From a virus: a stretch of 28,769 nt of DNA. The DNA is taken from positions 1 through 28,769 of the IMG/VR virus record IMGVR_UViG_3300034198_002381. One strand, 5' to 3'. Of this stretch, positions 880-27,436 are shown in pieces (position 1 is the first letter of the stretch; every line of letters begins with the position of its first letter). The notes below the pieces were generated by a model. The model was not told the origin of the DNA. It made no database searches and saw only the letters and a program-made list of their open reading frames with translations. A program made the translations under genes and the position numbers.

Positions 880-1827
880 ATGTCAACTCTTGTATCTACG
901 AATATAGTAACTGCTAACGGAACGACAGATGCCTCTTTAAAGACAGGAAACACCAACGCTGGTGGTGTTATTGTGAACTCTGCTGGTGGATTGGTACTTG
1001 CCAGTAACTCGACAATAAATGCAGTGACAGTTGCGGCTAACGGTAATGTTGGTGTCGGTACTGCTACTCCGGGGTTTCCCATAGTGATCAGTAAACTGGC
1101 ACCCACTTACATATATCAGTATGATGGCACGGGAGTTCAAATCACTGGAGTTAATGGTGCTGGTCTTGCAGTTTCTGGCAGCTTTAGCTCAACAGACTAC
1201 GCTCTTTACTCGAACTCGACCGAGCGTATGCGTATAGGAAGCACGGGATATATCACAACAGTTTCAACTTCTAATGTTGGTATCGGTAATACGGCTCCAG
1301 CACAAAAATTGGTGGTCGAAGGTAACATGTATGCGAATGGTGTCCCTCTTCAGCAAATTTATACAAGAAGTGATACTAAAGCAGCATATGCTATTTCTGC
1401 CACACAAAACGCAGTAAGTACTATTGCTGAAATGACTACTTCTATAACTCCCAGAAGATCCACCAGCAAAGTCAAATTAACATATTGTGTATCTTTCGAA
1501 GCTGACTATAACACTGTTTTTAGGGTATATAGGTGGGATGGTGGTTCTAACACGATCATAGGTCTTAACACCAATGATACCAACTATTGGTCTGGTACAT
1601 TTATAACAGGTTATGATGCTGATACCACCACCACCCCAATGACTAAAACTTATGTTTATTTAGATTCTCCAGCAACGACAAATACGTGCACTTATTATCT
1701 TACTGTTCAGAGCACCAGTGGAGGAGCTTTGAATTTCTATTTAAATAGAGCTTACAGTTCAACTGGTGCATCAACCTATGAAGTTTCTATAAGTCAAGCG
1801 TTTCTTGAAGAAATCGGTAATATATAA
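880..1827 (+). CDS. Tail fibre / receptor-binding protein, paralogue 1 of 3
   Basis: This 315-aa protein follows the upstream fibre after 12 nt, with an AAAAGGA Shine-Dalgarno at about 867-873. Its N-terminus (MSTLVSTNIV...) resembles the N-termini of other fibres here. Residues 56-64 (NVGVGTATP) and 132-148 (NVGIGNTAP...KLVVEG) are the 'NVGIG-ttp-KL-V-G' motif common in phage fibre shafts, often ahead of an S74 chaperone; no such chaperone is present. Residues about 165-315 form a distinct C-terminal domain (ITPRRSTSK, NYWSGT, LNRAYSS) shared with the next two genes. It may be a beta-sandwich receptor-binding head; that fold is inferred, not seen. It ends with EEIGNI, matching the QEIG endings of its paralogues. 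Confidence 0.78.
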   Translation: MSTLVSTNIVTANGTTDASLKTGNTNAGGVIVNSAGGLVLASNSTINAVTVAANGNVGVGTATPGFPIVISKLAPTYIYQYDGTGVQITGVNGAGLAVSGSFSSTDYALYSNSTERMRIGSTGYITTVSTSNVGIGNTAPAQKLVVEGNMYANGVPLQQIYTRSDTKAAYAISATQNAVSTIAEMTTSITPRRSTSKVKLTYCVSFEADYNTVFRVYRWDGGSNTIIGLNTNDTNYWSGTFITGYDADTTTTPMTKTYVYLDSPATTNTCTYYLTVQSTSGGALNFYLNRAYSSTGASTYEVSISQAFLEEIGNI

Positions 1828-1829
1828 TT

Positions 1830-1837
1830 TATAAATA
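1830..1837 (+). promoter_or_regulatory. Putative T4-type late promoter (TATAAATA)
   Basis: Exact match to the T4 late-promoter core. It lies in the 30-nt gap just after the stop of the first fibre paralogue and 20 nt before the start at 1858. An AAGGGA Shine-Dalgarno stands between them. Position in a true intergenic gap makes this one of the better matches. Confidence 0.6.
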
Positions 1838-1857
1838 CTAATAAAAAAGGGACTTGT

Positions 1858-2802
1858 ATGTCTAAAGTTATTGCTGCTAGTTTTGAATCAATCAATGCTA
1901 CATCTAACGCAACTTTAAGAACAGGAAACGCCAGCGCTGGTTATGTTTCTGTGCTTTCTGGTGGCGGTATCGTTTTGTCTAGCAATTCTACATCGAATTC
2001 TTTAGTCATAACTGATACCCTAATTTCTACTAATTCTAATATTGCCATAGGCACAGATAGCACTGACGGTTATAAGTTTGCTGTGAAAGGAGTATCGGGA
2101 GGTACTGCTAAATTATACATGACAACTGACACCACTACCAGTTATATTGTTTCTAATGGAAGTCTTATTTATGGTACTCTTGGTGTTGGTAACTATCTAG
2201 GATTTAGTACGAATGGTGGCGAACGTTTACGCATAAGTTTTAATGGTAATACTGGTATAGGTAATACTGATCCGCAACAAAGATTAGTTGTTGAAGGAGA
2301 TTTTTATGCCAATGGTGCTGTGCTACAAACGGTTTATAATAAAATAGACACTAAAGCTGTTGTGGCTTTTGCTGCTGCTGGTTCTAACGGTTCTATCATT
2401 ACTGACCTTAATACTACAATTACACCAAAAAGAACGACCAGTAAGGTTTTAATTAACTACTGTTTAACTTATGAAGTCACATATAATACTGTTTTCAGGT
2501 TATTTCGTACGATCGATGGCGTAGAAACTCAAATAGGAAGGAACACTTTAGACTCTAATTATTGGTCAGGAACTTGGGTTCCTGGGTACGATTATGATGA
2601 TAATTCTACCCCCAGAACACAGACCATGATGTTTTTAGATTCTCCGGGAGTTGCTTCCCCGATCACATACAAATTGATGATTCAATCTTCCGGTGTCGGC
2701 GCAACTAATTTCTATTTAAATAGATCTATAGCTTCTGCTGGTGCATCACAGTATGAGGTGGGTATCTCAACCGTATATCTTCAAGAAATCGGCGTAGTAT
2801 AA
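1858..2802 (+). CDS. Tail fibre / receptor-binding protein, paralogue 2 of 3
   Basis: A 314-aa paralogue of the proteins at 880-1827 and 2804-3787. The N-terminus MSKVIAASFESINA is nearly the same as in paralogue 3 (MSKVITNSLESIN). Residues 131-147 carry NTGIGNTDP...RLVVEG. The C-terminal domain (about 160-314) keeps ITPKRTTSK, NYWSGTW, FYLNRS and the final QEIG. The start is supported by an AAGGGA site at about 1847-1852 and an upstream late-promoter match. The next gene begins one base after its stop, so the two are probably translated in a coupled way. The role is inferred from composition and position in the fibre locus; the receptor is unknown. Confidence 0.78.
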   Translation: MSKVIAASFESINATSNATLRTGNASAGYVSVLSGGGIVLSSNSTSNSLVITDTLISTNSNIAIGTDSTDGYKFAVKGVSGGTAKLYMTTDTTTSYIVSNGSLIYGTLGVGNYLGFSTNGGERLRISFNGNTGIGNTDPQQRLVVEGDFYANGAVLQTVYNKIDTKAVVAFAAAGSNGSIITDLNTTITPKRTTSKVLINYCLTYEVTYNTVFRLFRTIDGVETQIGRNTLDSNYWSGTWVPGYDYDDNSTPRTQTMMFLDSPGVASPITYKLMIQSSGVGATNFYLNRSIASAGASQYEVGISTVYLQEIGVV

Positions 2803-2803
2803 T

Positions 2804-3787
2804 ATGTCTAAAGTTATCACTAATAGTTTAGAGTCTATAAATTCTTTTACTGATATACATTTACAGTCTGGAAATACCAATTCTGGAAAAATCGGCGTTT
2901 ATCAATCTGGTGGATTGAGATTATTTTCTAATTCTAATTCTTTAAAACTCGATATAAGCAGCAACACAATCTCTGTTAATAATTATTTGTTTATATCTGC
3001 TGTTAATTTTAGTGGTGATGTTCCGTTTATAATGAGAGGTGGCGATGCTATAGATTACAAATATATCGCCGGAACTACAATAGGAACATATAATACTAGT
3101 TCACTTTTCACGAATGGACTTATAAAACTAGATTCTAATAATGGTGCTTCTAGCACTATCATTCTCGCAACTAACAATACGCCAAGGATGATCATAAATA
3201 GTGATGGTAATACGGTAATAGGTGATTTCACTGTTGCTAATGCACCAAATCAAAAATTGGTTATCGGTGGTGATTTTTATGCCAAAGACACAATAACACA
3301 AACAATTTATTATAGGGTTAACACTAAAGCCACGTACAGTTATCCTGTTGCTGTTGCTGGTCAAGACACTAGTGTCATTATTGGACTTCTTAATGCTTCT
3401 ATCACTCCCAGAAGATCTACAAGTAAAATTTTGATTAAATATTGTTTGACATATGAATGTTGGCATGATGCAGTTTTTAGGATATATAGGAACGATGGAG
3501 TTTCTAATACGAGAATTGGTGTAAACACTTTAGACTCTAATTATTGGTCAGGAACTTGGGTTTCTACATATGATAAAGACACGGGCACCACGCCAATAAC
3601 GCAGACAATGATGATCCTAGACGCACCAGGAACAACAAGAACTTGCACCTATTCTTTCGCAGTGCAATCTAGTGATGTTGGTACAGGTTCTATTTTTAAT
3701 TTAAATAGATCTTATGACTCTGTGGGTTCTGATACCAACGAAGTAGGTATTTCATCAATATTAATTCAAGAAATCGGAGACATTTAA
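2804..3787 (+). CDS. Tail fibre / receptor-binding protein, paralogue 3 of 3
   Basis: A 327-aa protein, third of a tandem set. It begins at TAATATG, one base after the previous stop, and has no convincing Shine-Dalgarno, which suggests coupling. N-terminal MSKVIT...LESIN and C-terminal ITPRRSTSK, LDSNYWSGTW, LNRSYDS, QEIGDI match its neighbours, while the middle (about 40-145) has diverged. Residues 148-156 keep the PNQKLVIGG form of the shaft motif, but the preceding NVGIG is degraded to NTVIG. A stretch around 3526-3560 is identical at DNA level to the same place in paralogue 2, pointing to recent conversion or duplication. The stop overlaps the next start (TAATG). Confidence 0.78.
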   Translation: MSKVITNSLESINSFTDIHLQSGNTNSGKIGVYQSGGLRLFSNSNSLKLDISSNTISVNNYLFISAVNFSGDVPFIMRGGDAIDYKYIAGTTIGTYNTSSLFTNGLIKLDSNNGASSTIILATNNTPRMIINSDGNTVIGDFTVANAPNQKLVIGGDFYAKDTITQTIYYRVNTKATYSYPVAVAGQDTSVIIGLLNASITPRRSTSKILIKYCLTYECWHDAVFRIYRNDGVSNTRIGVNTLDSNYWSGTWVSTYDKDTGTTPITQTMMILDAPGTTRTCTYSFAVQSSDVGTGSIFNLNRSYDSVGSDTNEVGISSILIQEIGDI

Positions 3788-10098: not shown

Positions 10099-11130
10099 AT
10101 GATCAAACCTGATATTTTTTATTATGATGAGAAAAACATTTATATCAATCGTTTAGACGCAATAAGATCTGGTAATATCTGTAAATTCTATTATTATGAT
10201 GATTTCTTTTCCACTTTAGATTGGACAAAGGAACCATCAGAATCTTTACAAGAACTTTATCGCGAAAGAGCACAACAGATACGTGAGACATACGATCATG
10301 TTGTGGTTTGTTACTCTGGCGGTATAGACTCGACTCAGGTATTAGAATCTTTTTATTATAACGATATACATATCGATGAAATATTGGTTGTTGGTGCATT
10401 ATCTCAAGATGACCAATTCGGTACAGACAGGAATCATAATGGTGACTTATATTGGAATGTTTTTCCTTATTTGAAAGATTTACATTTACCGAATACCAAA
10501 ATCAGTTTTGTAGATTATACGAAATACTTTAACGATATCAACAATTTCACCTTGCTGCAGAAGTATGGGGTAGATTATATCGAAAAGATCGGTATAAGAA
10601 CAAGCGTCCATAACCTATTATGGTACGACTTAGATAAATTTTTAAATCACAAAAAACATACAGCTTATGTTATGGGAAAAGAAAAACCAACAGTTAAATT
10701 TGATGGGAGATTTTCTTTGGCTTTTCATGATATATCGTTCACTGATTATGGTAATAGATATGAATACGCGACTGGCAGAAGGGTAAATTTTTATTCTGAT
10801 CCTGAAGCTTATAAAATCATATTGAAACAATCTCATAAAATCAAACAGCACCAGCAACATCTGGAAGAATTTCCTTATCCTTTACCATATAGTATATACG
10901 ACAATTATACCGATAGGATCAAACCTATCATTTACGACATCAAAAGACCTTTAAAACATCAATCAAATAAATCTAAATGCACATATTTGAGCGCAAGAGA
11001 TATGTTTATGGTAGATAAGAAAAATTCACAAATTTTTGACATATATTCTAAAGCTATGGTGAATCTGAGTAAGATAGTTGACATAAACTCAAGAGAAGTT
11101 TTCGAATCTAAAAAATACTACCTATCATGA
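10099..11130 (+). CDS. PP-loop ATP-pyrophosphatase-like protein A
   Basis: A 343-aa protein. Residues 69-78 (VVCYSGGIDS) are a hydrophobic strand followed by the PP-loop SGGxDS that binds ATP pyrophosphate in N-type ATP pyrophosphatases (asparagine synthetase B, QueC, TilS, NadE and relatives). These enzymes adenylate a substrate for attack by ammonia, sulfur or an amine. There is no N-terminal glutaminase domain. A preceding helix region (LDWTKEP, YRERAQQIR) and later GKEKP (194-198) and KQSHKIK recur in the protein at 13837-15042, making the two paralogues. The substrate is unknown. The stop overlaps the hydroxylase start (ATGA), consistent with an operon. It could be annotated asparagine synthase-like, but I do not claim that reaction. 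Confidence 0.8.
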   Translation: MIKPDIFYYDEKNIYINRLDAIRSGNICKFYYYDDFFSTLDWTKEPSESLQELYRERAQQIRETYDHVVVCYSGGIDSTQVLESFYYNDIHIDEILVVGALSQDDQFGTDRNHNGDLYWNVFPYLKDLHLPNTKISFVDYTKYFNDINNFTLLQKYGVDYIEKIGIRTSVHNLLWYDLDKFLNHKKHTAYVMGKEKPTVKFDGRFSLAFHDISFTDYGNRYEYATGRRVNFYSDPEAYKIILKQSHKIKQHQQHLEEFPYPLPYSIYDNYTDRIKPIIYDIKRPLKHQSNKSKCTYLSARDMFMVDKKNSQIFDIYSKAMVNLSKIVDINSREVFESKKYYLS

Positions 11131-11549
11131 CATACATATTAGTATTTCTGCTTTGGACTTTTGTTATATACTGGATGCACAGACTCGCGCACGCCATACC
11201 AGTGATGTCAAATATACATTATGACCACCATCAATATGTCAATAAAAACGAAATTGATTGGCATTGGTCTAATTTGTTTCTCTATAACGACACTTGGAAA
11301 AGCACTGTTGACCTCTGGATCACAGAGGTTATACCGACTATAGTCATGAGCATATTTGTTGGATGGTGGTTATTTACTGCGTATTATATATGGGCGGCGT
11401 TTATACAAGAAAGAATAGAGCACAATTCTGATTTTGATTGGTATCCTCTGACCAGTGGTAAATGGCATATGGTACATCACACCAACGGCAATTACAATTA
11501 TGGTATATTTTTCCCAATCTGGGATATAATATTCGGAACTAGAAAATGA
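11127..11549 (+). CDS. Small membrane di-iron hydroxylase (fatty acid hydroxylase/sterol desaturase family)
   Basis: A 140-aa protein with the histidine clusters of the fatty acid hydroxylase superfamily: H18-x3-H22 (HRLAH), H31-x2-HH (HYDHH, 31-35), H99 in IEHN, and H114-x2-HH (HMVHH, 114-118). The family ending NYNYGIFFPIWDIIFGT follows. Hydrophobic segments at about 2-16 and 66-92 should place it in the inner membrane. The family uses a di-iron centre and O2 to hydroxylate or desaturate lipids, sterols or carotenoids. It is shorter than typical cellular members but retains all clusters. It overlaps both neighbours by ATGA and has no clear Shine-Dalgarno, so it is probably made by translational coupling. 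The substrate is unknown. Confidence 0.85.
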   Translation: MTYILVFLLWTFVIYWMHRLAHAIPVMSNIHYDHHQYVNKNEIDWHWSNLFLYNDTWKSTVDLWITEVIPTIVMSIFVGWWLFTAYYIWAAFIQERIEHNSDFDWYPLTSGKWHMVHHTNGNYNYGIFFPIWDIIFGTRK

Positions 11550-12355
11550 CCCAAAATAATTGGTTAGAGCACAACCTCAAAGAAAGATTGTACGATCTCT
11601 CTGTCGATTTCAAACTTCAGATCAATGAAACGCCATACCAACTGACCGATTTTAAAACTGCCTCTTTTGAAGTGGTTAATTTGATTGATAGATTAGATAT
11701 GCCAATTTTCATCAGCTTCAGTGGTGGTATGGATTCTGAATATGTCGTTAAATGCTTTTTAGAAGCAGGAACTAAGTTTACGCCGATAATAGTGAAAACT
11801 TCTGGTAACGATTACGAATCTTCGTATGCTTTTCATTTTTGTAGAAAATATAATATACCATTCATTGTTATCGAGAAAACCGATGTAGAAATTTTGTCTA
11901 TATTCTATAAAGAGATATTCAAAAAGTTGAACAGTAAGGGTATAAACTCCACTCCAGCTCTTATAGCAGGTATGTACGCGAAACAACAAGGCGGAGTTTT
12001 GGTTAAAGGCGAGCACCTCATCGATGATGATAGAGACTGGCGAGGAACTATCGATAGGGTGGGTTCGAACGAATGGGATTTCTACAATGATGTTTTGGTA
12101 GGCAACACTGTTAATTTCTTTTTGGAGACTCCGAATATTGCTGTTTCTTTGGTCAGGGAAATTAGAGCCGAAGAACCTGTACAGGAGTTTAAACATAGGA
12201 TGTTTGATATACCTTTCAGACCTAAATTTTCATATAAATATCCTAAATTGTACAACGAAGCTTTGAAAGAAATTAAAAAGAAAATGGTAGTACAGCCTAA
12301 TTACAACTTCAGTTTCGAACCCAAAGAAACATTTTTAGAAAAAATTAAAGGTTAA
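11546..12355 (+). CDS. PP-loop ATP-pyrophosphatase-like protein B
   Basis: A 269-aa protein with FISFSGGMDS at residues 55-64, the PP-loop after a hydrophobic strand. A second Rossmann-like strand follows (FTPIIVKTSGNDYESSYAF, 78-96), then FIVIEKTD, an order typical of the adenine nucleotide alpha-hydrolase fold. It lacks the DWT-EP and KQSH blocks shared by proteins A and C and is the shortest of the three, so it is a different subfamily. It could be a PAPS-reductase-like or amidotransferase-like enzyme. There is no glutaminase domain and no obvious zinc site. It begins in an ATGA overlap with the hydroxylase gene, and the methyltransferase-like gene follows by 4 nt. Confidence 0.78.
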   Translation: MTQNNWLEHNLKERLYDLSVDFKLQINETPYQLTDFKTASFEVVNLIDRLDMPIFISFSGGMDSEYVVKCFLEAGTKFTPIIVKTSGNDYESSYAFHFCRKYNIPFIVIEKTDVEILSIFYKEIFKKLNSKGINSTPALIAGMYAKQQGGVLVKGEHLIDDDRDWRGTIDRVGSNEWDFYNDVLVGNTVNFFLETPNIAVSLVREIRAEEPVQEFKHRMFDIPFRPKFSYKYPKLYNEALKEIKKKMVVQPNYNFSFEPKETFLEKIKG

Positions 12356-12359
12356 CGAT

Positions 12360-12983
12360 ATGGCTAAGTATTGGTCTGAAAATTACGATTACAATTATGT
12401 CATGAAAGAATCAACTATCAGAAGATTCGAAGGCGATGAAGAAAAAATTAAAGAATGGGAATTTCTTTCTAGGAATAATAGATACTTGTTTTTTAACAAA
12501 GAGGGTGTTAGAAAATTCGTAAGAGATCATGTAAAAGAGTACGATGCTAAGAGCGTATTGGATTATGGTAATGGTGGTAATAGATTTCTAAATCATGTTT
12601 TAGAAATTTACCCTGATGTCACGATAGAAAAATACGACCCGTTCGTAGAAGGTTTAGAAAACGAACCTTTGAAATCTAGTGATATAGTTTATTGTTACAA
12701 TGTATTGAATGTCGTAGAAACAGAGTATGTCGAAGAAGTTTTAAAACACATTCACGAATGCTGTAATAAAGTCGCATTCTTTAATATTCCCACCCCTGGT
12801 CTTTATAGAAGAAAGTATGAGTTTTATATTCAAACGCTCTATAAATTAGACCTATTCAATATAAAAGAAGGGAATTATTATACAGGAATTAGTAGAATGA
12901 ATACTATCAAACCTTATTCTTCTGCAGAAATGTCCAATTTGGACGATTATCAGGCACTTTACCTTTGTCTTGAAAAAAAGTAA
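12360..12983 (+). CDS. Class I SAM-dependent methyltransferase-like protein
   Basis: A 207-aa protein. Residues 65-75 (SVLDYGNGGNR) fit motif I (hydrophobic-D-x-G-x-G), the SAM-binding loop. An acidic residue ends the next strand (VTIEKYDPF, 87-95). SSDIVYCYNVLNVVE (106-120) fits the strand and helix of motifs II/III. The fold therefore looks like a Rossmann methyltransferase; the third Gly of motif I is displaced, so catalytic competence is not certain. The substrate is unknown. An AAAGG Shine-Dalgarno sits at 12347-12351, and the gene is packed between PP-loop B and the amidoligase, 5 nt from the latter. Methylation of the pathway product is a natural but unproven role. Confidence 0.7.
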   Translation: MAKYWSENYDYNYVMKESTIRRFEGDEEKIKEWEFLSRNNRYLFFNKEGVRKFVRDHVKEYDAKSVLDYGNGGNRFLNHVLEIYPDVTIEKYDPFVEGLENEPLKSSDIVYCYNVLNVVETEYVEEVLKHIHECCNKVAFFNIPTPGLYRRKYEFYIQTLYKLDLFNIKEGNYYTGISRMNTIKPYSSAEMSNLDDYQALYLCLEKK

Positions 12984-12988
12984 TATGA

Positions 12989-13840
12989 ATGCTATATGAT
13001 GTTTCTAAGTGGAGTTGGGGGTTAGAATTAGAAATTGGCGACATACCTAGGAATTTAGAGATACCGAATCATTTAGGTGAATGGGAAAATTTTGAAATTT
13101 GCGTAGTCAATCAATTGTCTCCATATAAAGGTATGGCTTGCGATCCGAAAGGGTTAAATCCTCCTGTTGGTGGTGAGATTAATACCAGACCAACCACGAC
13201 AATAGACAAACAAATAAAATTAGTTAGGGAACTTTTATATTATTTTAAAAGTAAAAACCTAACACCAACAACTTCTGCGGTTTCTCACACCCACGTTCAT
13301 GTCCATGTACCCAATCTTAAAGATAAACTGATAGATTTAAAGAAACTACTTTGTTATTTGTGGGTTAACCAAGAAACAGTTATCGATAATGTATATGATA
13401 TCAAATTAAATCCTTCTATGTCTGATTATGCGATAAATTATATATCTTTGGATGGTGGTAGGAAATATGACGCTAAAAAGATACACGATGCATTATCTCT
13501 GACAGAAACGCCTGTATTTTATAAATCATTAGTTTTGGATCCTACCAACCCATCAGATAGGCATTACATAAATATTAAAAACATATTCCGAAACGATACT
13601 ATAGAGTTTAGATGTTTCCGCAACACTATAGATCCTGAACAGATCAGGTCTATGTTAGAATTTTGTAAAGATTTTTTGAATCAAGGTTTGAATACCGATA
13701 TTTCTAAATTTAAATTCGAAAAAAAATACAATTTCCCCAAATTAGATTACGATGATGATCTTTTTAAATCTTGGGAGAAAACAAAACACCCTGTTGATTT
13801 TTCCGTGAAAAAACCTAATGCCTTTAAGGATCCGTTATGA
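12989..13840 (+). CDS. Amidoligase (Amidoligase_2-type COOH-NH2 ligase)
   Basis: A 283-aa protein with the ordered motifs of the amidoligase family, relatives of glutamine synthetase and gamma-glutamylcysteine ligase. WGLELEIG (10-17) supplies the G-x-E-x-E metal-binding acids; GGEINTRPTT is the second acidic strand; SHTHVHVHV (about 98-106) is the His-rich strand; HYINIKN...NDTIEFRCFRNTID is the terminal N-x-E-F-R block. All expected motifs are present, so activity is plausible. Such enzymes join a carboxylate to an amine using ATP, making peptide-like bonds in metabolites or on proteins. The start at 12989 is the only suitable one; an ATG at 12985 opens a four-codon frame. It overlaps PP-loop C by ATGA. 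The substrate is unknown. Confidence 0.82.
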   Translation: MLYDVSKWSWGLELEIGDIPRNLEIPNHLGEWENFEICVVNQLSPYKGMACDPKGLNPPVGGEINTRPTTTIDKQIKLVRELLYYFKSKNLTPTTSAVSHTHVHVHVPNLKDKLIDLKKLLCYLWVNQETVIDNVYDIKLNPSMSDYAINYISLDGGRKYDAKKIHDALSLTETPVFYKSLVLDPTNPSDRHYINIKNIFRNDTIEFRCFRNTIDPEQIRSMLEFCKDFLNQGLNTDISKFKFEKKYNFPKLDYDDDLFKSWEKTKHPVDFSVKKPNAFKDPL

Positions 13841-15042
13841 ATATTGATATGATCAATTATGGTTACTACTTTTACAATAATGAGATTTCGTATAATAGAC
13901 AAGATATTTTGGATAAAATGGTCCACAATAAAGATTATGATGGCGATTTCGAATTTCATTTCAACAATCATGTTTTTGACAATATAGATTGGACAACAGA
14001 ACCAGAAACAGATATCGAAACGATGTATAAGGAAAGAGCTCAACAGCTGAGAGACAAATACAGATATTTGATCGTTTTATTCTCTGGTGGTTCTGATTCT
14101 ATACAAATACTCAATACGTTTATGAAAAACAATATATTTATCGATGAAATACAATGTTTCCATCACGAAAAGGGTATGGAAATAGTTTCTTTAAATCAAA
14201 TACAAGAAAATCAAGATTTAACACATTTGTTAGAATATAAGTATGTAGCAAAAGATTTTCTGGAAAAGGTAAAACAAAAAAGCCCAAATACTATAATAAC
14301 CTCAGTAGACCTTACTGATTTTTTGGTAGACAATGTTGTCGGTAAAAAATATGATTATTTGGGTCAGAATAAAAACAATATTATCATGACTCCAATGGCA
14401 TTCAATTATTTACCAAGGTCTTACAGTTACCAAATAATCAAGATCAACGAAGAAAGAAATAAACAAAAAGACAGTGTTGCTATAGTCAGGGGTATAGAAA
14501 AACCAAGACTAAATGTTTATGGTGAAGATTTGATGTTTCATTTCACTGATGCTACATTGATGACTGGTAGAAATATGATCAATGGTGACATGGCTAAAGT
14601 TGGAACTATTGAGAATTTCTTTTGGACAGCAGATTACCCTTTGATACCTGTGAAACAATCTCATATGATTTTAAAAACTTTTAGAGAAAAAAACCATTTA
14701 AAAAGTAAATTTGTTAAATATAAAAAGAAAATCCAAGAAGATTACAAAGAAAATCAGTACAATTGGTACTCTAGGGGTATTTTGTTATCAGAGAGGATAA
14801 CAAGTTCTATCATATACCCAGGTTGGTCTCCTAATATCTTTTTCGGTCTTAAACCAGAAAAACAATCTCCTGAGTTTATATTGTTGGATAAGATGGGTTA
14901 TAACCATCATGGTCAAACAGTCGTAGACGAATACAGGAATTTCATATTAAAAAAATATTATAAAATATCAAACAAAAATCTTTTGAAAAATTTCATGATA
15001 ACTAAACAGTATTTCGTGGGAAAGGTGAACAATGAGAAATAA
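13837..15042 (+). CDS. PP-loop ATP-pyrophosphatase-like protein C (paralogue of A)
   Basis: A 401-aa protein with LIVLFSGGSDS at residues 78-88, the PP-loop. Similarity to protein A (10099-11130) is clear along the N-terminal half: IDWTTEP against LDWTKEP, YKERAQQLRDKY against YRERAQQIRETY, and IDEIQ against IDEIL after the loop. Further on, GIEKP matches GKEKP and KQSHMI matches KQSHKI. It has an extra C-terminal region of about 60 residues. No glutaminase domain is present. AAGGA at 13826-13830 precedes the ATGA start. The 3' end overlaps the next gene by 11 nt. The paired paralogues A and C bracket the hydroxylase, PP-loop B, methyltransferase and amidoligase genes. Confidence 0.8.
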   Translation: MNIDMINYGYYFYNNEISYNRQDILDKMVHNKDYDGDFEFHFNNHVFDNIDWTTEPETDIETMYKERAQQLRDKYRYLIVLFSGGSDSIQILNTFMKNNIFIDEIQCFHHEKGMEIVSLNQIQENQDLTHLLEYKYVAKDFLEKVKQKSPNTIITSVDLTDFLVDNVVGKKYDYLGQNKNNIIMTPMAFNYLPRSYSYQIIKINEERNKQKDSVAIVRGIEKPRLNVYGEDLMFHFTDATLMTGRNMINGDMAKVGTIENFFWTADYPLIPVKQSHMILKTFREKNHLKSKFVKYKKKIQEDYKENQYNWYSRGILLSERITSSIIYPGWSPNIFFGLKPEKQSPEFILLDKMGYNHHGQTVVDEYRNFILKKYYKISNKNLLKNFMITKQYFVGKVNNEK

Positions 15043-15931
15043 ATTATTAATTATACTATTTGCATTTCTATTTGCAAACACAGCTTTTGCAAAAGAAACC
15101 ATCAATGTCTACACCAAATTCAGTAATGGCTCTCCTCCTGGTAGAATTTTGTTCGACCTACTCAATCGTATGAATGAAATAGATGAAAAATACGAATACA
15201 AATTTTCGACTTTACCAGGCGGCGAAGGAGAAACTGCTATAGCAAGAGTGTTTAAAGATCCTGGTAAAGTTTTGTTATATGCAGCAAATGCTGAGTTTAC
15301 TTTTTTCAGAGAAAAGATTACAGAGTACGATAAGAAGAAAGATTTCATATTCATACAATCTATTCAATCTGCACCCTACTCTTTGATCGTTCCCAAGATC
15401 CATAATATTTCTTCTTTAGACCAATTGATAGATAGGATTAAAAATAAACCAAATGCATTTTATGCCAATTTGTCTGTTTCTGGCGCGACGAATATATTGT
15501 CAGAAAGGTTTATTGAAAAATACGGTTTGGGTAATAATTTAAAACCAATAAATTACAGTAACCTTGTCGATGTTGGAAGGGGAACTATTAATGGCGAATT
15601 TGATTTTTTTATTTTCGAACCATCGACTATCCCTTCTTCTTCGTTTGATGTGTTATTTGTAACTTCTAAAGAAAGAAACCCATTTTTTCCCGAAACTAAA
15701 TCTATAACTGAATTGGGGTTGGACAATTTATATTTTGAGACTTTAACATTTTTCGCCACAAATTCTAAGAACAGAGAATTAGCAGAGCGTGTAGAAAAAT
15801 TAGCAGTCAGAGTTTGCGAAAACGAAAATTTTAAAAATCTGTTATCTAAAAATAATAGAGTTTCCAAATGTATGGGTTCTCAAAAAACAGAACAATTTTT
15901 ATTAAAAGAATACAATCATTTCAGATATTGA
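15032..15931 (+). CDS. Secreted TctC/Bug-type substrate-binding protein 1
   Basis: A 299-aa protein with a clear signal peptide (MRNKLLIILFAFLFANTAFA, cut before KE), so it should be periplasmic. The mature part follows the Bug/TctC receptor pattern of tripartite tricarboxylate transporters: an early loop with LPGGEGETAIARV, SAPYSLIVPK before a segment like 'kTl-eLi', ANLSVSGATNILSE, then RNPFFPETKSITELGL, matching the family's 'R-(x)n-PdvPT-aE-G' block. Cellular members capture carboxylates or other small molecules for a membrane TctAB pair; none is encoded here. It is quite divergent, and two Cys near the C-terminus (264 and 282) may form a disulfide. It overlaps PP-loop C by 11 nt and converges on, and overlaps by 16 nt, the next gene. 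Confidence 0.7.
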   Translation: MRNKLLIILFAFLFANTAFAKETINVYTKFSNGSPPGRILFDLLNRMNEIDEKYEYKFSTLPGGEGETAIARVFKDPGKVLLYAANAEFTFFREKITEYDKKKDFIFIQSIQSAPYSLIVPKIHNISSLDQLIDRIKNKPNAFYANLSVSGATNILSERFIEKYGLGNNLKPINYSNLVDVGRGTINGEFDFFIFEPSTIPSSSFDVLFVTSKERNPFFPETKSITELGLDNLYFETLTFFATNSKNRELAERVEKLAVRVCENENFKNLLSKNNRVSKCMGSQKTEQFLLKEYNHFRY

Positions 15932-16827
15932 ATATTTTCTTTATTCAAACGCTGTAATATCTGTTCTGCTTCTTTCCAATCTATCAAATTAACATCTATA
16001 CCTGCTTTAGAAGCTTCCTCTATATAATCTAAATCTTGAACAGCTGCTGAAAACGCTTTACGCAATTCAGCAGCTTTTTCTTTTGGTATATTTGGGGGCG
16101 CAACGTAAGGTCTCAATAAGATGTATTGGGATTCGAAAATAAATAATTTATTTTGATCTTTGGTCAACTCTGCTAAAGTTTTCACTTCAGGAAAATTAGG
16201 ATGACGATTTACCCCATTACCGAATTGCAATATAGGTTTGATTTTACTATTCGGACTCAACCATCCTGGTTTGGTTGATTTAATCCCTATCATACTATTG
16301 ATCATAGCATCTATTTCTTCGCGCTCGAGAGCGAGTCTGATTTCACTCTGGCTTTTGTAACCTTTTATTTCTTTGATATTCCATATGTTTTTAAGAATAT
16401 CTATAGGGTCACCGACCAATACGTTATCAGAACCGACTATCAATTCACCATCATATTCTTTATTTGACATGACTAACACAGTATCTTTTCTGCCATCCGC
16501 AGTAGAACCTAGCCAAGTGAATTTGATAGGATCGAAGTTTATATTTGGACCTCCTATAGCCCCAACCAAAGGTATGTTTTTATAAAATACTCCTATAGTA
16601 TTTCCATCTTTCGGTGCTATATTGTAAAGGTAATTTGCTGCCACGACACTCGCGGCTCCAGGAATAATTTTAAATTCTACTGTTCGGTTTAGGTGTTTTT
16701 GTAAATACTTTCCGAATATCCTAGCATTGATCGCATGAGAGTCTTCTGCTACTGGTAAGATAATTGTTAGTGTTTCTGCTTTTACCGGAACTATAAATAA
16801 TAAGAAAACTATCAACCACCTAATCAT
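15916..16827 (-). CDS. Secreted TctC/Bug-type substrate-binding protein 2
   Basis: A 303-aa protein on the opposite strand to every other gene here. The start at 16827 (MIRWLIVFLLF) is chosen over one four codons upstream (16839) because GGAGA (16833-16837, minus strand) stands six bases before it. Residues 1-17 are a signal peptide ending VKA. Family features are strong: PGAASVVAANYLYNIAPKDG, FTWLGS, then NRHPNFPEVKTLAEL, APPNIPKEKAAELRKAF and a final DWKEAEQILQRL, the usual end of tripartite tricarboxylate receptors. It is closer to cellular marine bacterial members than protein 1. No TctA or TctB is present. It probably binds a small organic substrate in the host periplasm; which one cannot be read. 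Confidence 0.85.
   Translation of the reverse strand: MIRWLIVFLLFIVPVKAETLTIILPVAEDSHAINARIFGKYLQKHLNRTVEFKIIPGAASVVAANYLYNIAPKDGNTIGVFYKNIPLVGAIGGPNINFDPIKFTWLGSTADGRKDTVLVMSNKEYDGELIVGSDNVLVGDPIDILKNIWNIKEIKGYKSQSEIRLALEREEIDAMINSMIGIKSTKPGWLSPNSKIKPILQFGNGVNRHPNFPEVKTLAELTKDQNKLFIFESQYILLRPYVAPPNIPKEKAAELRKAFSAAVQDLDYIEEASKAGIDVNLIDWKEAEQILQRLNKENIQYLK
16792..16799 (+). promoter_or_regulatory. Putative late promoter before the neck gene
   Basis: Exact TATAAATA, 73 nt before gp13. It lies inside the signal-peptide region of the oppositely oriented receptor gene, where protein-coding demand does not act in this sense. It could start the long gp13-gp17 transcript. Confidence 0.55.
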
Positions 16828-16872
16828 AATTATCTCCATAGTGAAAAGTTATAAATTATTTAGAGGATTAAA

Positions 16873-17613
16873 ATGGCAATACCCACATCAAGAGATACAT
16901 TTAAAGAATATTGTCTTCGAACTCTCGGCAAGCCTGTCATTGAAATTAATGTTGATGACGATCAAGTTGACGATCGTATAGATGAAGCTTTGAAATATTT
17001 CTGGGACTACCATTTCGACGGTTCTGAAAAGATATTTTACAAACATCAGATAACATCACAAAACAAAATAGACAAATATTTCATTCTACCCGATAATGTT
17101 ATCGGCGCTGTTAATATTTTCGAAATCGGTCAAGCTCTGAACACTAACAATTTGTTCAATATCCGTTATCAGATCGCATTGAACGATCTTTATACTTTGA
17201 CCTCTGTATCTATGGTTCCGTATTATATGGCATTGCAGCATGTTCAGTTTTTGGAACAAATGCTTGTCGGTAAACAACCTTTAAGATACAATCGTCACAA
17301 CAATCGTTTGTATGTTGATATGAGTTGGGATATCGTAAATCCCGGAGATTATGTTATAGTTGAAGCTTATCAAATCGTTGACCCTGACGAGTTTACAAAA
17401 ACTTGGGGAGATCGCTGGCTCGCGAGATACTCTACATGCCTAATAAAGCAACAATGGGGCAACAACCTCAAAAAGTTCGATGGTATGAAGATGCCAGGCG
17501 GTCTGACTTTTAACGGTCAAAGAATTTATGAAGAAGCTTCTACAGAAAGATTAGAACTAGAAAAAGAAATGATTTATAGTTACAGCTTGCCTGTGACGGA
17601 TATGATAGGATAA
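16873..17613 (+). CDS. gp13: Neck protein gp13 (head completion)
   Basis: A 246-aa protein beginning MAIPTSRDTFKEYCLRTLG followed by acidic VDDDQVDDRIDEAL, the recognisable N-terminus of gp13 in aquatic T4-like phages. T4 gp13 (309 aa) joins the packaged head and, with gp14, forms the neck to which the tail attaches. AGAGG at 16862-16866 supports the start. It opens the conserved structural run and is followed by gp14 after one base, as in T4. The protein is somewhat shorter than in T4, as is usual in this lineage. Confidence 0.9.
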   Translation: MAIPTSRDTFKEYCLRTLGKPVIEINVDDDQVDDRIDEALKYFWDYHFDGSEKIFYKHQITSQNKIDKYFILPDNVIGAVNIFEIGQALNTNNLFNIRYQIALNDLYTLTSVSMVPYYMALQHVQFLEQMLVGKQPLRYNRHNNRLYVDMSWDIVNPGDYVIVEAYQIVDPDEFTKTWGDRWLARYSTCLIKQQWGNNLKKFDGMKMPGGLTFNGQRIYEEASTERLELEKEMIYSYSLPVTDMIG

Positions 17614-17614
17614 A

Positions 17615-18337
17615 ATGGCAACAAATTTCTTTTTCAATAATTACCAATCTTCAATGGAGCAGCAGCTCCTAGAGAATTTGATTATTGAATCTATTAGAAT
17701 ATATGGTCAGGATATGTACTATATTCCTCGCAAACTTCATAACTATGATAGTGTTTATGGAGCAGATGATCAATCTAGTTATGAGTTCGCATATCCTATA
17801 GAAATCTACATCAAATCTGTTGATGGGTTTGCTGGCGATGGTAATTTTATGTCCAAATTCGGTATTGAGATTAGAGATCAAGTAATATTCTCAGTATCTC
17901 AAAAAATATTCAATCAAGAGATCGGCGAGTACACCACGCAAGTTCGACCTAACGAAGGCGATCTTATATTTTTCCCGCTTAATAAGAAATGCTTCCAGGT
18001 TAAATACGTTAACAAATTTGAAATGTTTTATCAGTTAGGCGCATTACAAACTTGGGAAATGACTTGTGAATTGTTCGAATATTCTGGCGAAACACTAAAA
18101 ACTGGTATACCAGAAATCGATGTTCTTCAAAAGAAATATAGCACTAATGTTTTAGATTGGTCACTTCTGAACGAGTCTGGTGCGAGACTTATCGATGAAA
18201 CTGGTGATTATATAACACTTGAAGGTTCTTCTGTCGGCAATCTCATTGTTGGTGATGACAGTGATGAAATTCAAACAGAATCTAACGAATTTGTAGATTG
18301 GTCTAGAGCCGATCCGTTCAGCGAAAGTAATATTTAA
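17615..18337 (+). CDS. gp14: Neck protein gp14
   Basis: A 240-aa protein with MATNFFFNNY, EQQLLENLIIESIRIYGQD and YYIPR near the N-terminus, then FSVSQKIF, RPNEGDLIFFP and TWEMTCELFEYS in the middle, all features of gp14 in T4-like phages. gp14 forms a ring with gp13 that closes the filled head and receives the tail. The C-terminal part is acidic (DDSDEIQTESNEF). It lies between gp13 and gp15 as in T4, and its stop overlaps the gp15 start by one base. Confidence 0.9.
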   Translation: MATNFFFNNYQSSMEQQLLENLIIESIRIYGQDMYYIPRKLHNYDSVYGADDQSSYEFAYPIEIYIKSVDGFAGDGNFMSKFGIEIRDQVIFSVSQKIFNQEIGEYTTQVRPNEGDLIFFPLNKKCFQVKYVNKFEMFYQLGALQTWEMTCELFEYSGETLKTGIPEIDVLQKKYSTNVLDWSLLNESGARLIDETGDYITLEGSSVGNLIVGDDSDEIQTESNEFVDWSRADPFSESNI

Positions 18338-19185
18338 TGTTCGGTCAAACATTTTATTTCAGCACAATACGTAAATATGTTATACTTGTAGGAACGTTGT
18401 TCAACGATATTCATATAACTCGTTCAGATAAGCAAGGTAATACCACTGCTCTGATTAAAGTTCCTATTTCGTATGCACCTAAAGATAAAATGTTAGCTCG
18501 TGTCCTTCAAGATCCAGCAATAGACAGAGAAACAGCAACTATTCCTTTGCCTATGATTTCTTTCGAAATGGGTCAAATGAGATATGATGGTACCAGAAAA
18601 TTACCAACTGTTGGTAGATCTAGTGTTAAAAATGACACTTTGGCGAACAAATTCAACTATCAGTATAACCCAGTTCCTTATAATATAGAATTTAAAGTTT
18701 ATATTTACGCTAAAAATGCTGAAGACGGAACTAAGATTATTGAACAGATATTACCATTTTTCGCACCTGATTGGACAACGACCGTTAAACTTATACCAGA
18801 AATGGATATTATAATGGACATTCCAATCGTGCTAAATACTATTAACTATAGTGATAATTATGACGGGGCATTTAAAGAACGTAGAGCGATTATTTGGACT
18901 TTAGATTTAGTATTAAAAGGATACATTTATGGACCAGTTAAGAAAGGCGGTATCATTAAATTCGTTAAAACGAATTTCTATATGCCAAACGTTCCTGATG
19001 GTAAACTGAATGATGCAGTGGGAGTTACGCCAATCGCAGAAAGGCTCACTGTACAACCTGGACTGACTGCAGAAGGTAATCCTACTAATAATATTAATGA
19101 AACGATTCCTTATAATGAAATTGAAGCATCTGACGATTATGGTTTCATAACTCAGATTTATAACACAGATGAGATAGATGACTGA
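18337..19185 (+). CDS. gp15: Tail sheath stabiliser and completion protein gp15
   Basis: A 282-aa protein starting MFGQTFYFSTIRKYVILVGTLF, matching the MFG-(x)n-R-Y-(x)-LxG-LF start of T4 gp15 (272 aa). A region with VPISYAPKDK and LPMISFEM follows. gp15 caps the completed tail tube and sheath as a ring and provides the docking surface for the head neck. Order gp14-gp15-gp16 is as in T4. The 3' end overlaps the small terminase gene by 8 nt. Confidence 0.9.
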   Translation: MFGQTFYFSTIRKYVILVGTLFNDIHITRSDKQGNTTALIKVPISYAPKDKMLARVLQDPAIDRETATIPLPMISFEMGQMRYDGTRKLPTVGRSSVKNDTLANKFNYQYNPVPYNIEFKVYIYAKNAEDGTKIIEQILPFFAPDWTTTVKLIPEMDIIMDIPIVLNTINYSDNYDGAFKERRAIIWTLDLVLKGYIYGPVKKGGIIKFVKTNFYMPNVPDGKLNDAVGVTPIAERLTVQPGLTAEGNPTNNINETIPYNEIEASDDYGFITQIYNTDEIDD

Positions 19186-21290: not shown

Positions 21291-23789
21291 ATGGCATTTC
21301 AACTAAGTCCAGGCGTAAACGTTACTGAAATTGATCTTACAACCGTTGTGCCTGCAGTTGCCACTTCCGACGGCGCCATTGGTGGCGTGTTCCGTTGGGG
21401 TCCAGTAGGCGAAAGAGTACTTGTAGATTCTGAAAACCAGCTTGTTGCTCGTTTCGCAAAACCAAGTAACCTTAATGCAGAAACATACTTCACAGCGGCA
21501 AACTTCCTTTCTTACGCAAATCGTCTTTACGTTTCACGTGCTGCTAATACTAGTGGTGCAACCCCACATAAAACTGCTCGTTTGAACAAATACGTTGCTA
21601 ACCTAAGTTCAAACAATTCTGGTAGTGCTAACTACGATAATACTGACGTTATCATAATAGTTTCTCAGCATGGAGCTAACGGTACTGGGACTTTAACTAC
21701 TAATTCTGTTGGTGGTATAACTACTGTAAGTGTTTCCACACCAGGATTTGGTATGAACGTAAGTCCTACATTAGTATTTAAAGCTGCTAATGGTGCTGCA
21801 TCTAACGGTACTGGTGCTAACGTTTCTGCTGGCGTTGCAACTTCTCATGTTCAATACGTCGTAGATGGCGGCACATTGAACCTTAACAGTAACATGTATA
21901 TCACTCAGTCTTCTAACACCAGTGCAGTTTCATATGGCGAATCAGTAACTGTTGTTAATAGTGCTATTATTACACTTCCTACTAGCTCTTCGTATTACGA
22001 TGACATTGATCTTTACTTCGGTAACGAGGAAACATCATACACAGCTGTTGCTTTAGAAACTGGTGGTATCGTTGCTAACCTTGTGAATCAAATCGTTAAG
22101 AACGATAATGCATACACAGCAATGGACGGTAATTTCGACTCTGATATTCTTTACGTATCGAAATACCCAGGCGCTTTGGGTAACTCTTTGAAGATAGCTG
22201 TTTGCGATTCTTCTGATGCTTATACTTCTACTATAAATTCTACTGCTAATTTCACATACGATATCGGCGAGAAAATGGCAACTGCTATTTTTGCTGGTGT
22301 CGCTAATACAGATGCTGATGATGTAGCAAACGAAATTTCTATTGGTGATCAAATCCTAGTAGGAAATAGTGCTATCGGTATTCAGTATATGAAAGTAAGT
22401 TCTGTAGAGATTGTATCTAACACTAATACGACTTTAACATTGAATTTTGAAGATCCATATAGACTACACACTGCATATGTTTCTAATACTGTCAATCGTT
22501 ATTGGGAGTTTTTCAACGTTGTAGAATCATCACCTGGTCAAACAGATTGGGTGCTTCGTCACGGCAATACTTCTGCTAATGACGAGTTACACCTTGTTGT
22601 TGTTGATGATGGTGGCCAGTTTACCGGAACTCCAGGAACTATCCTAGAAGTTTATAAGGGTCTTTCAAGAGCAACAGATGCTAAGAATGCTGACACTAGT
22701 GGCAACTACTACAAGGATGTCATCAATCAGAACTCTAATTACATCTGGTGGGCAAATGATCGCTCTGGCGCATCTTCAGCAAACTCTATGTTGATTGCTT
22801 CTTCATCAAACATGACACCTTTCGATACAGAGTTCGCCATGGGTTCTGATGGTCTTGATGAAACTTCTGTATCTCTATCAACTCTTGGTCCTGCTTATGA
22901 CCTGTTCGTTTCACCAGAAGACGTAGATATTTCTCTAATTCTTCAGGGTCATCCTATCGGAGGTTCAAGTTCTTACGACGGTATCACTGTCCAGAACTTC
23001 CAGCTTGCCAACTACATTATCGATAATATCTGTGAAAGCAGAAAAGATTGCGTAGCGTTAATTTCACCAGACAAAAATACTGTACTAAATAACTTTGGTA
23101 ACGAAGCTTTGACATTGAAAGCTTGGAGATCAGCTATCCGTTCTTCTTCTTATGCTGTTCTTGATTCTGGTTATAAGTATCAGTACGATCGTTACAATGA
23201 CATTTATCGTTGGATCCCATTGAACGGTGACATCGGCGGTCTTTGTGTTCGTACAGACAATACAAACGATGCTTGGTGGTCACCTGCTGGTTTCAACCGT
23301 GGTCAAATTAAGAATATCGTTAAGCTTGCTTGGAACCCACGTAAGTCTGAACGCGATGTGCTTTATGTGAACGGTGTAAACCCAGTTGTTACGTTCCCAG
23401 GTCAAGGCACTATACTTTACGGCGACAAAACCCTACTTTCTAAGCCATCAGCATTCGATAGAATTAATGTTCGTCGTCTGTTCATTGTTCTTGAAAAGGC
23501 TATTTCTGTTGCTGCTAAAGCTTCGTTGTTTGAATTTAACGATCAGTTCACTCGTTCCCAGTTTAAGAACTTGGTAACACCTTACCTTCGTCAAATTCAG
23601 GGACGTCGTGGTATCACTGACTTTAAGGTTGTTTGTGACGACAGTAACAACACAGCTCAAATTGTTGATACGAACCAGTTTGTTGGCGATATCTATATCA
23701 AGCCAGCTCGTTCAATCAACTTCATCCAGTTGAACTTTGTGGCTGTAGGATCTGGTGTACAATTTTCAGAAGTTGTCGGCAAGTTCTAA
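21291..23789 (+). CDS. gp18: Contractile tail sheath protein gp18, with insertion
   Basis: An 832-aa protein starting MAFQLSPGVNVTEIDLTTVVPAVATSDGAI in the standard way for T4-like sheath proteins. The C-terminal half is typical: DNICESRKDCVALISP, LDSGYKYQYDRYND, then a final core with GVNPVVTFPGQGTILYGDKT and FVAVGSGVQFSEVVG. The core forms the contractile hexameric sheath. T4 gp18 is 659 aa; the difference lies mostly in residues about 105-260, a Ser/Thr/Asn/Gly-rich insertion resembling fibre sequence. Arginine is coded mainly by CGT here, unlike the fibre and cargo genes where AGA dominates, which fits strong expression. Confidence 0.95.
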   Translation: MAFQLSPGVNVTEIDLTTVVPAVATSDGAIGGVFRWGPVGERVLVDSENQLVARFAKPSNLNAETYFTAANFLSYANRLYVSRAANTSGATPHKTARLNKYVANLSSNNSGSANYDNTDVIIIVSQHGANGTGTLTTNSVGGITTVSVSTPGFGMNVSPTLVFKAANGAASNGTGANVSAGVATSHVQYVVDGGTLNLNSNMYITQSSNTSAVSYGESVTVVNSAIITLPTSSSYYDDIDLYFGNEETSYTAVALETGGIVANLVNQIVKNDNAYTAMDGNFDSDILYVSKYPGALGNSLKIAVCDSSDAYTSTINSTANFTYDIGEKMATAIFAGVANTDADDVANEISIGDQILVGNSAIGIQYMKVSSVEIVSNTNTTLTLNFEDPYRLHTAYVSNTVNRYWEFFNVVESSPGQTDWVLRHGNTSANDELHLVVVDDGGQFTGTPGTILEVYKGLSRATDAKNADTSGNYYKDVINQNSNYIWWANDRSGASSANSMLIASSSNMTPFDTEFAMGSDGLDETSVSLSTLGPAYDLFVSPEDVDISLILQGHPIGGSSSYDGITVQNFQLANYIIDNICESRKDCVALISPDKNTVLNNFGNEALTLKAWRSAIRSSSYAVLDSGYKYQYDRYNDIYRWIPLNGDIGGLCVRTDNTNDAWWSPAGFNRGQIKNIVKLAWNPRKSERDVLYVNGVNPVVTFPGQGTILYGDKTLLSKPSAFDRINVRRLFIVLEKAISVAAKASLFEFNDQFTRSQFKNLVTPYLRQIQGRRGITDFKVVCDDSNNTAQIVDTNQFVGDIYIKPARSINFIQLNFVAVGSGVQFSEVVGKF

Positions 23790-26346: not shown

Positions 26347-26580
26347 ATGGAAAATAATAAATATGAAATACAGGATTTAATTAACGCAGCAGTTGAACAA
26401 AAGCCAACTAATTTTTCTGATATTTTTGGAAATTTACTTGTTGACAGGCTAAGTGATGCAGTTTCTAACAAGAAAATGGAATTAGCCAAATCAATGTATG
26501 GTTCTGCCGCTGAAGTTGAGTCTGACGAAAACGATTACGAAGATAACTCAGAGGAAGAAACATATGGCGAAACCGCTTAG
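26347..26580 (+). CDS. Prohead core protein, gp67-like
   Basis: A 77-aa protein with an N-terminal helix (IQDLINAAVEQK), a middle FSDIFGNLLVDRLSDAVSNKKMELAKSMYG in short form, and a strongly acidic tail (EVESDENDYEDNSEEE). Size, acidic tail and place directly after the portal gene match T4 gp67 (80 aa), a prohead core protein cleaved by gp21 during maturation. The next gene starts inside it. Assignment is by position and composition; direct sequence identity to T4 gp67 is not assessed. Confidence 0.72.
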   Translation: MENNKYEIQDLINAAVEQKPTNFSDIFGNLLVDRLSDAVSNKKMELAKSMYGSAAEVESDENDYEDNSEEETYGETA

Positions 26581-27436
26581 AATTGTAGCTCCGGGCCAAA
26601 AGTCTGTTACTGGTATCATTAAAGGCGCCAAGCTCGATGGTGTGAAGTCTTCAAAAACTTCAAATCTTACTTTGGGCAAAGATGCAGGCGTTGATTACGA
26701 GCCAAAAGCTAAAGCCGAACAAGATTTTGTATCGAAGCATAAAGTTGATAAGCACGCCGATCGTGTAGGTAATGATGAATCACCATATACAGGTGGTAAG
26801 CCAGCCCCATATAAGAAGCAAAATGCTAAAGTTTACGAAGCTAAAAGCATGAAATGCGAATCTTGTGGTAACATTTACGAGGGCGAAACTTGTGATTGTG
26901 GTTCGATGAAAAAAAGTGGTAAAAAGCTTCTACTTGGTGGTAAAAAGGGATTATCAGAAGTTTTAAACCCAGTTTCTGAAGGAGCCAAAGTTGATAGGAT
27001 GGCGGTTCATATCGCCCAAAGCGAAAAGTCAACTGGTAAATCTGCCAAAAAGGCAAAAGAAATTGCATGGGCCACACTCAATAAACGTGGTTATTTAAAT
27101 AATAAAAATAAAAAGATGGAAGAAGCCAAAGAAATTAAAACTACTCCAGTACCTTCTAAGAGTGATGCTCACACCCAAGGTACAGTTGATGCATATTACG
27201 GTCGTCAACCAACCCCACGTGGCTCTAATCGCAAACCATTAACTAACCCTAAAGACATAGCTGATTATATGGACGGTCATAAGAATGGCGATGCAGGTAG
27301 CAAAGTTTACGAAGATCTAGCTATGCCAATGCTCGAAGGTGGGAAAAAGTCAAAAAAGAAACCTGTTAAAGAAACAACTGGCCCAGACGGTGGTATGAAT
27401 ATGTATGGCGACGGCGTATCACAAGGGAAGGTATAA
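26564..27436 (+). CDS. Lys-rich prohead-region protein with zinc-ribbon-like Cys cluster, unknown function
   Basis: A 290-aa protein. The start at 26564 (MAKPLRIVAPGQKSV), preceded by GAGGAA, is preferred to 26498 because the added 22 residues are only a shifted reading of the acidic gp67-like tail. It is basic and mostly disordered. Cys98, 101, 110 and 112 (CESCG...CDCG) could bind zinc. A helix follows, with MAVHIAQSEKSTGKS and IAWATLNKRGY. Residues about 201-250 (DAHTQGTVDAYYGRQPTPRG, NPKDIADYMDGHKNG) form another conserved-looking block. It occupies the place of T4 gene 68 (prohead core, 141 aa), but I see no proof of homology. It might be a core component or internal head protein. Confidence 0.6.
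   Translation: MAKPLRIVAPGQKSVTGIIKGAKLDGVKSSKTSNLTLGKDAGVDYEPKAKAEQDFVSKHKVDKHADRVGNDESPYTGGKPAPYKKQNAKVYEAKSMKCESCGNIYEGETCDCGSMKKSGKKLLLGGKKGLSEVLNPVSEGAKVDRMAVHIAQSEKSTGKSAKKAKEIAWATLNKRGYLNNKNKKMEEAKEIKTTPVPSKSDAHTQGTVDAYYGRQPTPRGSNRKPLTNPKDIADYMDGHKNGDAGSKVYEDLAMPMLEGGKKSKKKPVKETTGPDGGMNMYGDGVSQGKV

Follow-up and report, generated by a model that had tools for sequence, protein, structure and literature searches.

A PP-loop, membrane-hydroxylase and TctC gene cassette in uncultured T4-like viruses

Introduction

Amidoligase clusters have been described in phiEco32/LUZ24-like phages, where the amidoligase is partnered by a glutamine amidotransferase, ATP-grasp or COOH-NH2 ligase, and where a role in cell-wall modification and superinfection prevention has been suggested (PMC3890496, PMC10580990). 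The window analyzed here, a 28,769-base fragment of an uncultured T4-like virus of bacteria (IMGVR_UViG_3300034198_002381), resembles these clusters in carrying a phage-borne Amidoligase_2 enzyme. However, it differs in possessing three PP-loop enzymes (A, B and C), a fatty-acid-hydroxylase-family enzyme (FAH) and TctC-family proteins, the amidoligase being optional. In addition, searches for a glutamine amidotransferase or an ATP-grasp enzyme gave no confident match in the cassette or the adjoining genes.

Individual components resemble other known systems. The PP-loop enzymes share with AsnB, NadE, LarE and TtuA an SGGxDS loop and a Rossmann-like fold, which PP-loop B matches structurally, but A, B and C have no fused glutaminase. 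Likewise, the N-terminal class II glutaminase domain of glutamine-dependent asparagine synthetase was not found in the six proteins reported earlier for this locus. The A/C family, by contrast, has no relative among solved structures at E ≤ 0.001 and by structure resembles uncharacterised viral proteins only. The exported TctC-family binding proteins recall those of TctABC, whereas here they are paired with a PP-loop ligase and the membrane subunits were not noticed. Compared to the PF04116 superfamily, FAH keeps all histidine clusters and hydrophobic segments, and differs in being short.

Phage-borne biosynthetic cassettes as such are already known, and the chemistry proposed here is a putative one, assigned by protein family alone. 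Searches of an open-licence literature collection gave no described counterpart to the locus, in line with the earlier note, a model's reading of the DNA letters that knew of no such phage system; subscription papers could hold one. Altogether, the cassette looks like an undescribed chemical pathway brought by viruses into infected cells.

Gene organization of the cassette

Scanning of window proteins against PHROGs revealed matches to gp13/14/15-type, terminase, sheath, tube, portal and protease proteins, which mark a T4-like late region and agree with the placement made earlier. Tail-fibre-like genes lie to the left of the cassette, and head-tail, terminase, sheath, tube, portal and protease genes to its right.

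The six open reading frames (ORFs) of the earlier note are all present on the plus strand and tightly packed: at three junctions they overlap by 4 nt (ATGA), and at the other two they lie 4 and 5 nt apart. PP-loop A (10099..11130, 343 residues) is an ATP-pyrophosphatase-type ligase with an SGGIDS loop and a paralogue of PP-loop C. It is followed by FAH (11127..11549, 140 residues), a short membrane fatty-acid-hydroxylase-family di-iron enzyme with four histidine clusters, and by PP-loop B (11546..12355, 269 residues), an ATP-pyrophosphatase-type ligase with an SGGMDS loop and an EWDxY motif. The next two genes encode a SAM methyltransferase in an accessory slot (12360..12983, 207 residues) and an Amidoligase_2-family carboxylate-amine ligase, also accessory (12989..13840, 283 residues). 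The sixth encodes PP-loop C (13837..15042, 401 residues), a further ATP-pyrophosphatase-type ligase with an SGGSDS loop and a GxEKP motif. The operon extends beyond 15042, where it had been supposed to end: the plus-strand gene of TctC1 (15032..15931), an exported TctC-family solute-binding protein, overlaps that of PP-loop C, and the six-gene list had thus missed the TctC partner tied to this enzyme. A second TctC-family solute-binding protein, TctC2, is encoded on the minus strand (15916..16839).

The cassette lies directly after tail-fibre genes in the window and in many relatives, and collagen-like fibres are found near two 2OG-Fe(II) oxygenases in some relatives, an arrangement that would fit modification of virion proteins by enzymes acting on tail fibres. 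Nevertheless, we consider this very unlikely, since the core lies away from fibre genes in other lineages and a membrane oxygenase is unlikely to modify fibres.

Conserved core of the cassette

Two groups are conserved in related viruses: PP-loop A, FAH and PP-loop B on the one hand, and PP-loop C with its exported TctC partner on the other. Versions of this core recur in considerably more than 100 virus sequences of environmental origin, from many metagenomes. Searches of viral contigs gave 165 matches for the hydroxylase and 157 for PP-loop B, and a paired alignment of PP-loop A and C gave 123 related stretches, 80 of which were kept; PP-loop A or the amidoligase, scanned against viral contigs as single proteins, gave no match.

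Among anchor-fetched loci from one pooled set, which are neither independent nor a random sample, PP-loop B lies within 5 kb of FAH in 45 of 56 non-redundant cases; within the same distance of PP-loop B are an A/C-type PP-loop gene in 55, a TctC gene in 47 and FAH in 44 of 69 cases; PP-loop B stands directly downstream of FAH in 36 of 63, and all four core families occur in 96 loci (not deduplicated). The association of the core is strong from whichever anchor family it is viewed.

T4-like relatives mostly show the order A-FAH-B, a variable slot, C-TctC1, two 2OG oxygenase genes in reverse orientation, TctC2 and gp13. FAH and PP-loop B of other lineages occur alongside radical SAM proteins, fatty acid desaturases and additional PP-loop/TctC genes. 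Regarding the neighbour families c9 and c10, an acetyltransferase label was rejected, as the members tested have no Pfam match; the HxD-type motif of one member points to a 2OG oxygenase.

The G+C content of the cassette (0.30-0.35) is lower than that of the tail genes (~0.46), its region is variable among relatives, and the methyltransferase and amidoligase come and go. These features would suit independent auxiliary genes clustered by an insertion hot spot, of which TctC would boost carboxylate uptake and the PP-loop enzymes and FAH would be unrelated to it. However, the FAH-B and C-TctC links remain in place when the genomic setting, the gene order or the phage lineage changes, and we regard such independence as quite unlikely. 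The core families are under strong purifying selection, with a median dN/dS of 0.124 for A/C, 0.073 for FAH, 0.059 for PP-loop B and 0.065 for TctC. Near-invariant catalytic residues together with these low ratios show that the ORFs are not chance ones.

The PP-loop enzymes A, B and C

The three intact SGGxDS loops noticed earlier are all present. Residues S83, G84, G85, D87 and S88 are conserved at ≥95% in the A/C family (166 sequences), as are S59, G60, G61, D63 and S64 in the B family (112 sequences). None of A, B and C passes a curated Pfam or NCBIfam cut-off, and their identity as PP-loop proteins rests on the SGGxDS loops and on structure.

The AlphaFold models of PP-loop B and PP-loop C have pLDDT values of 94.0 and 92.8, respectively. 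At E ≤ 0.001, a structural similarity search with PP-loop B gave 145 matches in the PDB, headed by PP-loop enzymes of the HUP/Rossmann-like fold; its neighbours AsnB, NadE, LarE and TtuA have E-values of ~1e-5 to 1e-6 and TM-scores of 0.32-0.54. By sequence, PP-loop B resembles known PP-loop ligases weakly. The model of PP-loop C has no PDB match at E ≤ 0.001, with TM-scores by query length of ≤0.35, and its best matches are the weak ones to LarE (1.5e-3) and AsnB (2.6e-3), with carbapenam synthetase among others. It has six strong structural matches, all of them uncharacterised proteins of uncultured Caudovirales, with TM-scores by query length of 0.66-0.92. The chemistry of PP-loop C is assigned by its motif because a close solved relative is lacking. 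The catalytic residues are near-invariant across relatives, and the predicted folds of B and C are confident. Pfam searches of the six proteins found no glutaminase domain, in agreement with the earlier reading, and the lack of a carrier protein in the cassette is likewise supported.

QueC, TilS and thiolases are also PP-loop enzymes, and queuosine-type genes lie near some relatives, as would be consistent with a deazaguanine-like or sulfur-based modification of DNA or tRNA bases. Against it, no such genes are among the window matches, the A/C family has no invariant cysteine and the best partner is a membrane oxygenase, which makes base modification highly improbable. As regards the catalytic cysteines known from PP-loop sulfur transferases (TtuA, MnmA, LarE), no cysteine is invariant when A and C are pooled, while most sequences of A alone share C71 (81%) and most of B share C99 (88%). 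No QueD, QueE, FolE or reductase partner is among the PHROG matches of the window proteins scanned from this genome fragment, as the earlier note had observed of queuosine/deazaguanine synthesis. Since the partner conserved most strongly is an oxygenase integral to the membrane, DNA, which that note had listed among the possible targets, is disfavoured. Modification of DNA, a queuosine pathway and sulfur transfer are all less likely readings.

The membrane hydroxylase FAH

FAH matches PF04116 with an E-value of 7e-18 and 65.8 bits against a cut-off of 31. All histidine clusters are invariant in an alignment of 17 sequences, and hydrophobic segments are present; the family match and the invariant histidines bear out the di-iron hydroxylase clusters recognized earlier. 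Most relatives are 140-165 residues long. In the sampled bacterial genomes, FAH matches are weak except for one, the best having an E-value of 5e-21 and the others ~8e-9 or weaker.

Enzymes of the FAH family are integral-membrane oxygenases. A fatty acid desaturase lies near FAH in 19 of 56 cases, which suggests a membrane or acyl substrate. Members of the FAH and desaturase families can use non-acyl substrates as well, and it is this family membership that suggests a lipid as the putative target.

Pairing of PP-loop C with TctC

TctC proteins bind carboxylates. TctC1 matches PF03401 (E = 8e-11, 42.4 bits against a cut-off of 27) and has an N-terminal signal-like segment. TctC2, whose counterpart in relatives frequently separates the cassette from gp13, has a match to the same family (E = 2e-5) whose 24.9 bits are just under the gathering score of 27. 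Signal-like N-termini are present in 206 of 234 TctC proteins. No TctA/TctB-type transporter was noticed among the window ORFs, part of which were searched with Pfam, in a record that is a fragment.

Of the 71 distinct pairs of adjacent PP-loop and TctC genes, 49 have one gene order and 22 the reverse. The correlation between the two distance matrices is 0.853, compared to a maximum of 0.133 in 2000 permutations; when partners were swapped within genomes, 1.1% of trials reached the observed correlation. In a small control set of 13 genomes, PP-loop C tracks the adjacent TctC at 0.82, compared to 0.68 for the other TctC, 0.63 for PP-loop B and 0.45 for gp13. The PP-loop/TctC pair thus travels as a unit, one that may be categorically new. 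We infer that PP-loop C and TctC share a ligand, though the correlation could instead stem from their transfer as a unit.

Methyltransferase and amidoligase as accessories

The methyltransferase matches are weak but consistent: the earlier assignment holds by the PHROG match (phrog_24759, 1e-8), whereas Pfam support is weak (Methyltransf_23, 9e-5). The amidoligase matches PF12224 (E = 5e-6, 27.0 bits against a cut-off of 22), and its ExE, GGE, HxH and ExR motifs are invariant in six aligned sequences, so the motifs described earlier are indeed complete. Both enzymes are rare, with 10 amidoligase and 6 methyltransferase matches over all fetched loci, of which the window alone has the two together. 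The six genes therefore do not form a single conserved unit; the co-occurrence that had been proposed for six families holds for the PP-loop and hydroxylase genes but not for these two, which are swap-in accessories outside the conserved core. Searched against phages with tblastn, the amidoligase gave one weak match, which lies close to queuosine genes of a Vibrio jumbo phage and is too divergent a relative for its context to be transferred.

Proposed pathway

We tentatively favour, at well under even chances, a virus-borne pathway that combines carboxylate adenylation, amide joining and hydroxylation, and whose hydroxylated, amidated lipid or surface product would alter the envelope or metabolism. 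In the periplasm, TctC1 would bind one particular small carboxylate, as its family suggests, which PP-loop C would use in the cytoplasm either as such or as a derivative; a ligand common to both would explain why the pair co-diversifies. The PP-loop enzymes, to which fold and motif assign a putative adenylation activity, would form an acyl-adenylate with ATP and hand the acyl group to an amine or ammonia, forming an amide. As they lack a fused glutaminase, free ammonia or an amine would be the substrate. FAH, coupled to PP-loop B, would hydroxylate a membrane-embedded substrate. Since FAH is an integral-membrane oxygenase, the product would most likely be a lipid, or a surface molecule linked to one, that is hydroxylated and amidated and, in the window phage, methylated or conjugated as well. 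The benefit would most likely lie in an altered envelope or metabolism of the infected cell, for example blocking other phages. The inner membrane, which separates the periplasmic TctC from the cytoplasmic ligases, speaks against such a pathway. Of the amide-linked tailoring cassette proposed in the earlier note, the phage biosynthetic or tailoring reading and, by fold and motif, the adenylation-amide chemistry are retained, and the six-gene unit is not.

The product is probably lipid- or surface-linked, a soluble metabolite being nearly as possible. The latter might be a diffusible hydroxylated amide, such as a signal, a metallophore-like compound or an antimetabolite, for which TctC would scavenge precursors or recapture the product. 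Related arrays contain radical SAM, nitronate monooxygenase, Rieske, amidohydrolase and 2OG oxygenase proteins, which are natural-product types, and signal-less DctP-type binding proteins adjoin PP-loop genes in them. However, FAH is membrane-embedded and the core is without an obvious exporter or carrier protein, so that we hold a small-molecule pathway to be rather unlikely. It is possible, if doubtful, that a PP-loop ligase of the cytoplasm and an exported carboxylate-binder form a virus-specific two-part unit co-evolving on one ligand and that, together with the PP-loop/membrane-hydroxylase pair, this unit gives viruses an uptake-and-ligation pathway of their own to a molecule made by no known host.

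Distribution among phages and bacteria

A nucleotide search of the whole region against phages gave no match. Neither did tblastn searches of 50,697 phage records with seven protein queries of the PP-loop, hydroxylase and TctC families, namely PP-loop A, B and C and TctC1 of the window, a distant PP-loop protein (L067), a further PP-loop protein (L111) and an FAH (L083). As the core is widespread, under strong purifying selection and absent from these records, it apparently serves a common viral function that is undescribed. The enzyme families of the cassette are testable, and the TctC ligand offers a practical entry through the co-variation of PP-loop and TctC.

In bacteria, the A/C family was found in a single genome among the 369 gammaproteobacterial ones sampled, where it lies on a 3.2-kb MAG contig that resembles viral DNA, and in four of 129 genomes from the class of a Bacteriovoracaceae MAG, three of the four sharing chromosomal neighbours. 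For PP-loop B, a class-wide bacterial sample gave only weak, partial PP-loop matches. The best plasmid match of TctC2 is in Caballeronia, with 34% identity, which gives only a hint of a possible host.

Structural genes of the window and fibre genes of its relatives

The tail sheath protein encoded at positions 21291-23789 of the window comprises 832 aa and aligns end to end with a family model of 496 positions, and thus contains a large insertion. Further towards the end of the window, the prohead gene (26347-26580) is overlapped by an ORF at 26498-27436 with a weak match to HNH endonucleases.

At positions 880-3787, three paralogous genes lie in tandem, each encoding ~315 aa with a mutual identity of 40-44%, the third of which matches a tail fibre family. 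Among the related loci L005-L079, glycine-rich, collagen-like fibre genes are located near the cassette, with two 2OG-Fe(II) oxygenases (PF13640 and PF13759) close by.

Gene neighbourhoods of the PP-loop family

The PP-loop genes of phage loci L037, L067, L084 and others are adjoined by genes of DctP-type binding proteins (PF03480, 6e-25), and none of 20 such proteins has a signal peptide. One phage array, in locus L041, combines PP-loop, TctC and DctP genes with a porin-like gene (17485-18366) that appears Burkholderiales-like, as judged by eye only.

In related bacteria (L085, L266, L267 and L268), a homologue of PP-loop A/C resides on the chromosome. Its neighbours are shared at three of the four loci, and a spermidine-synthase-like membrane gene is found nearby in three.
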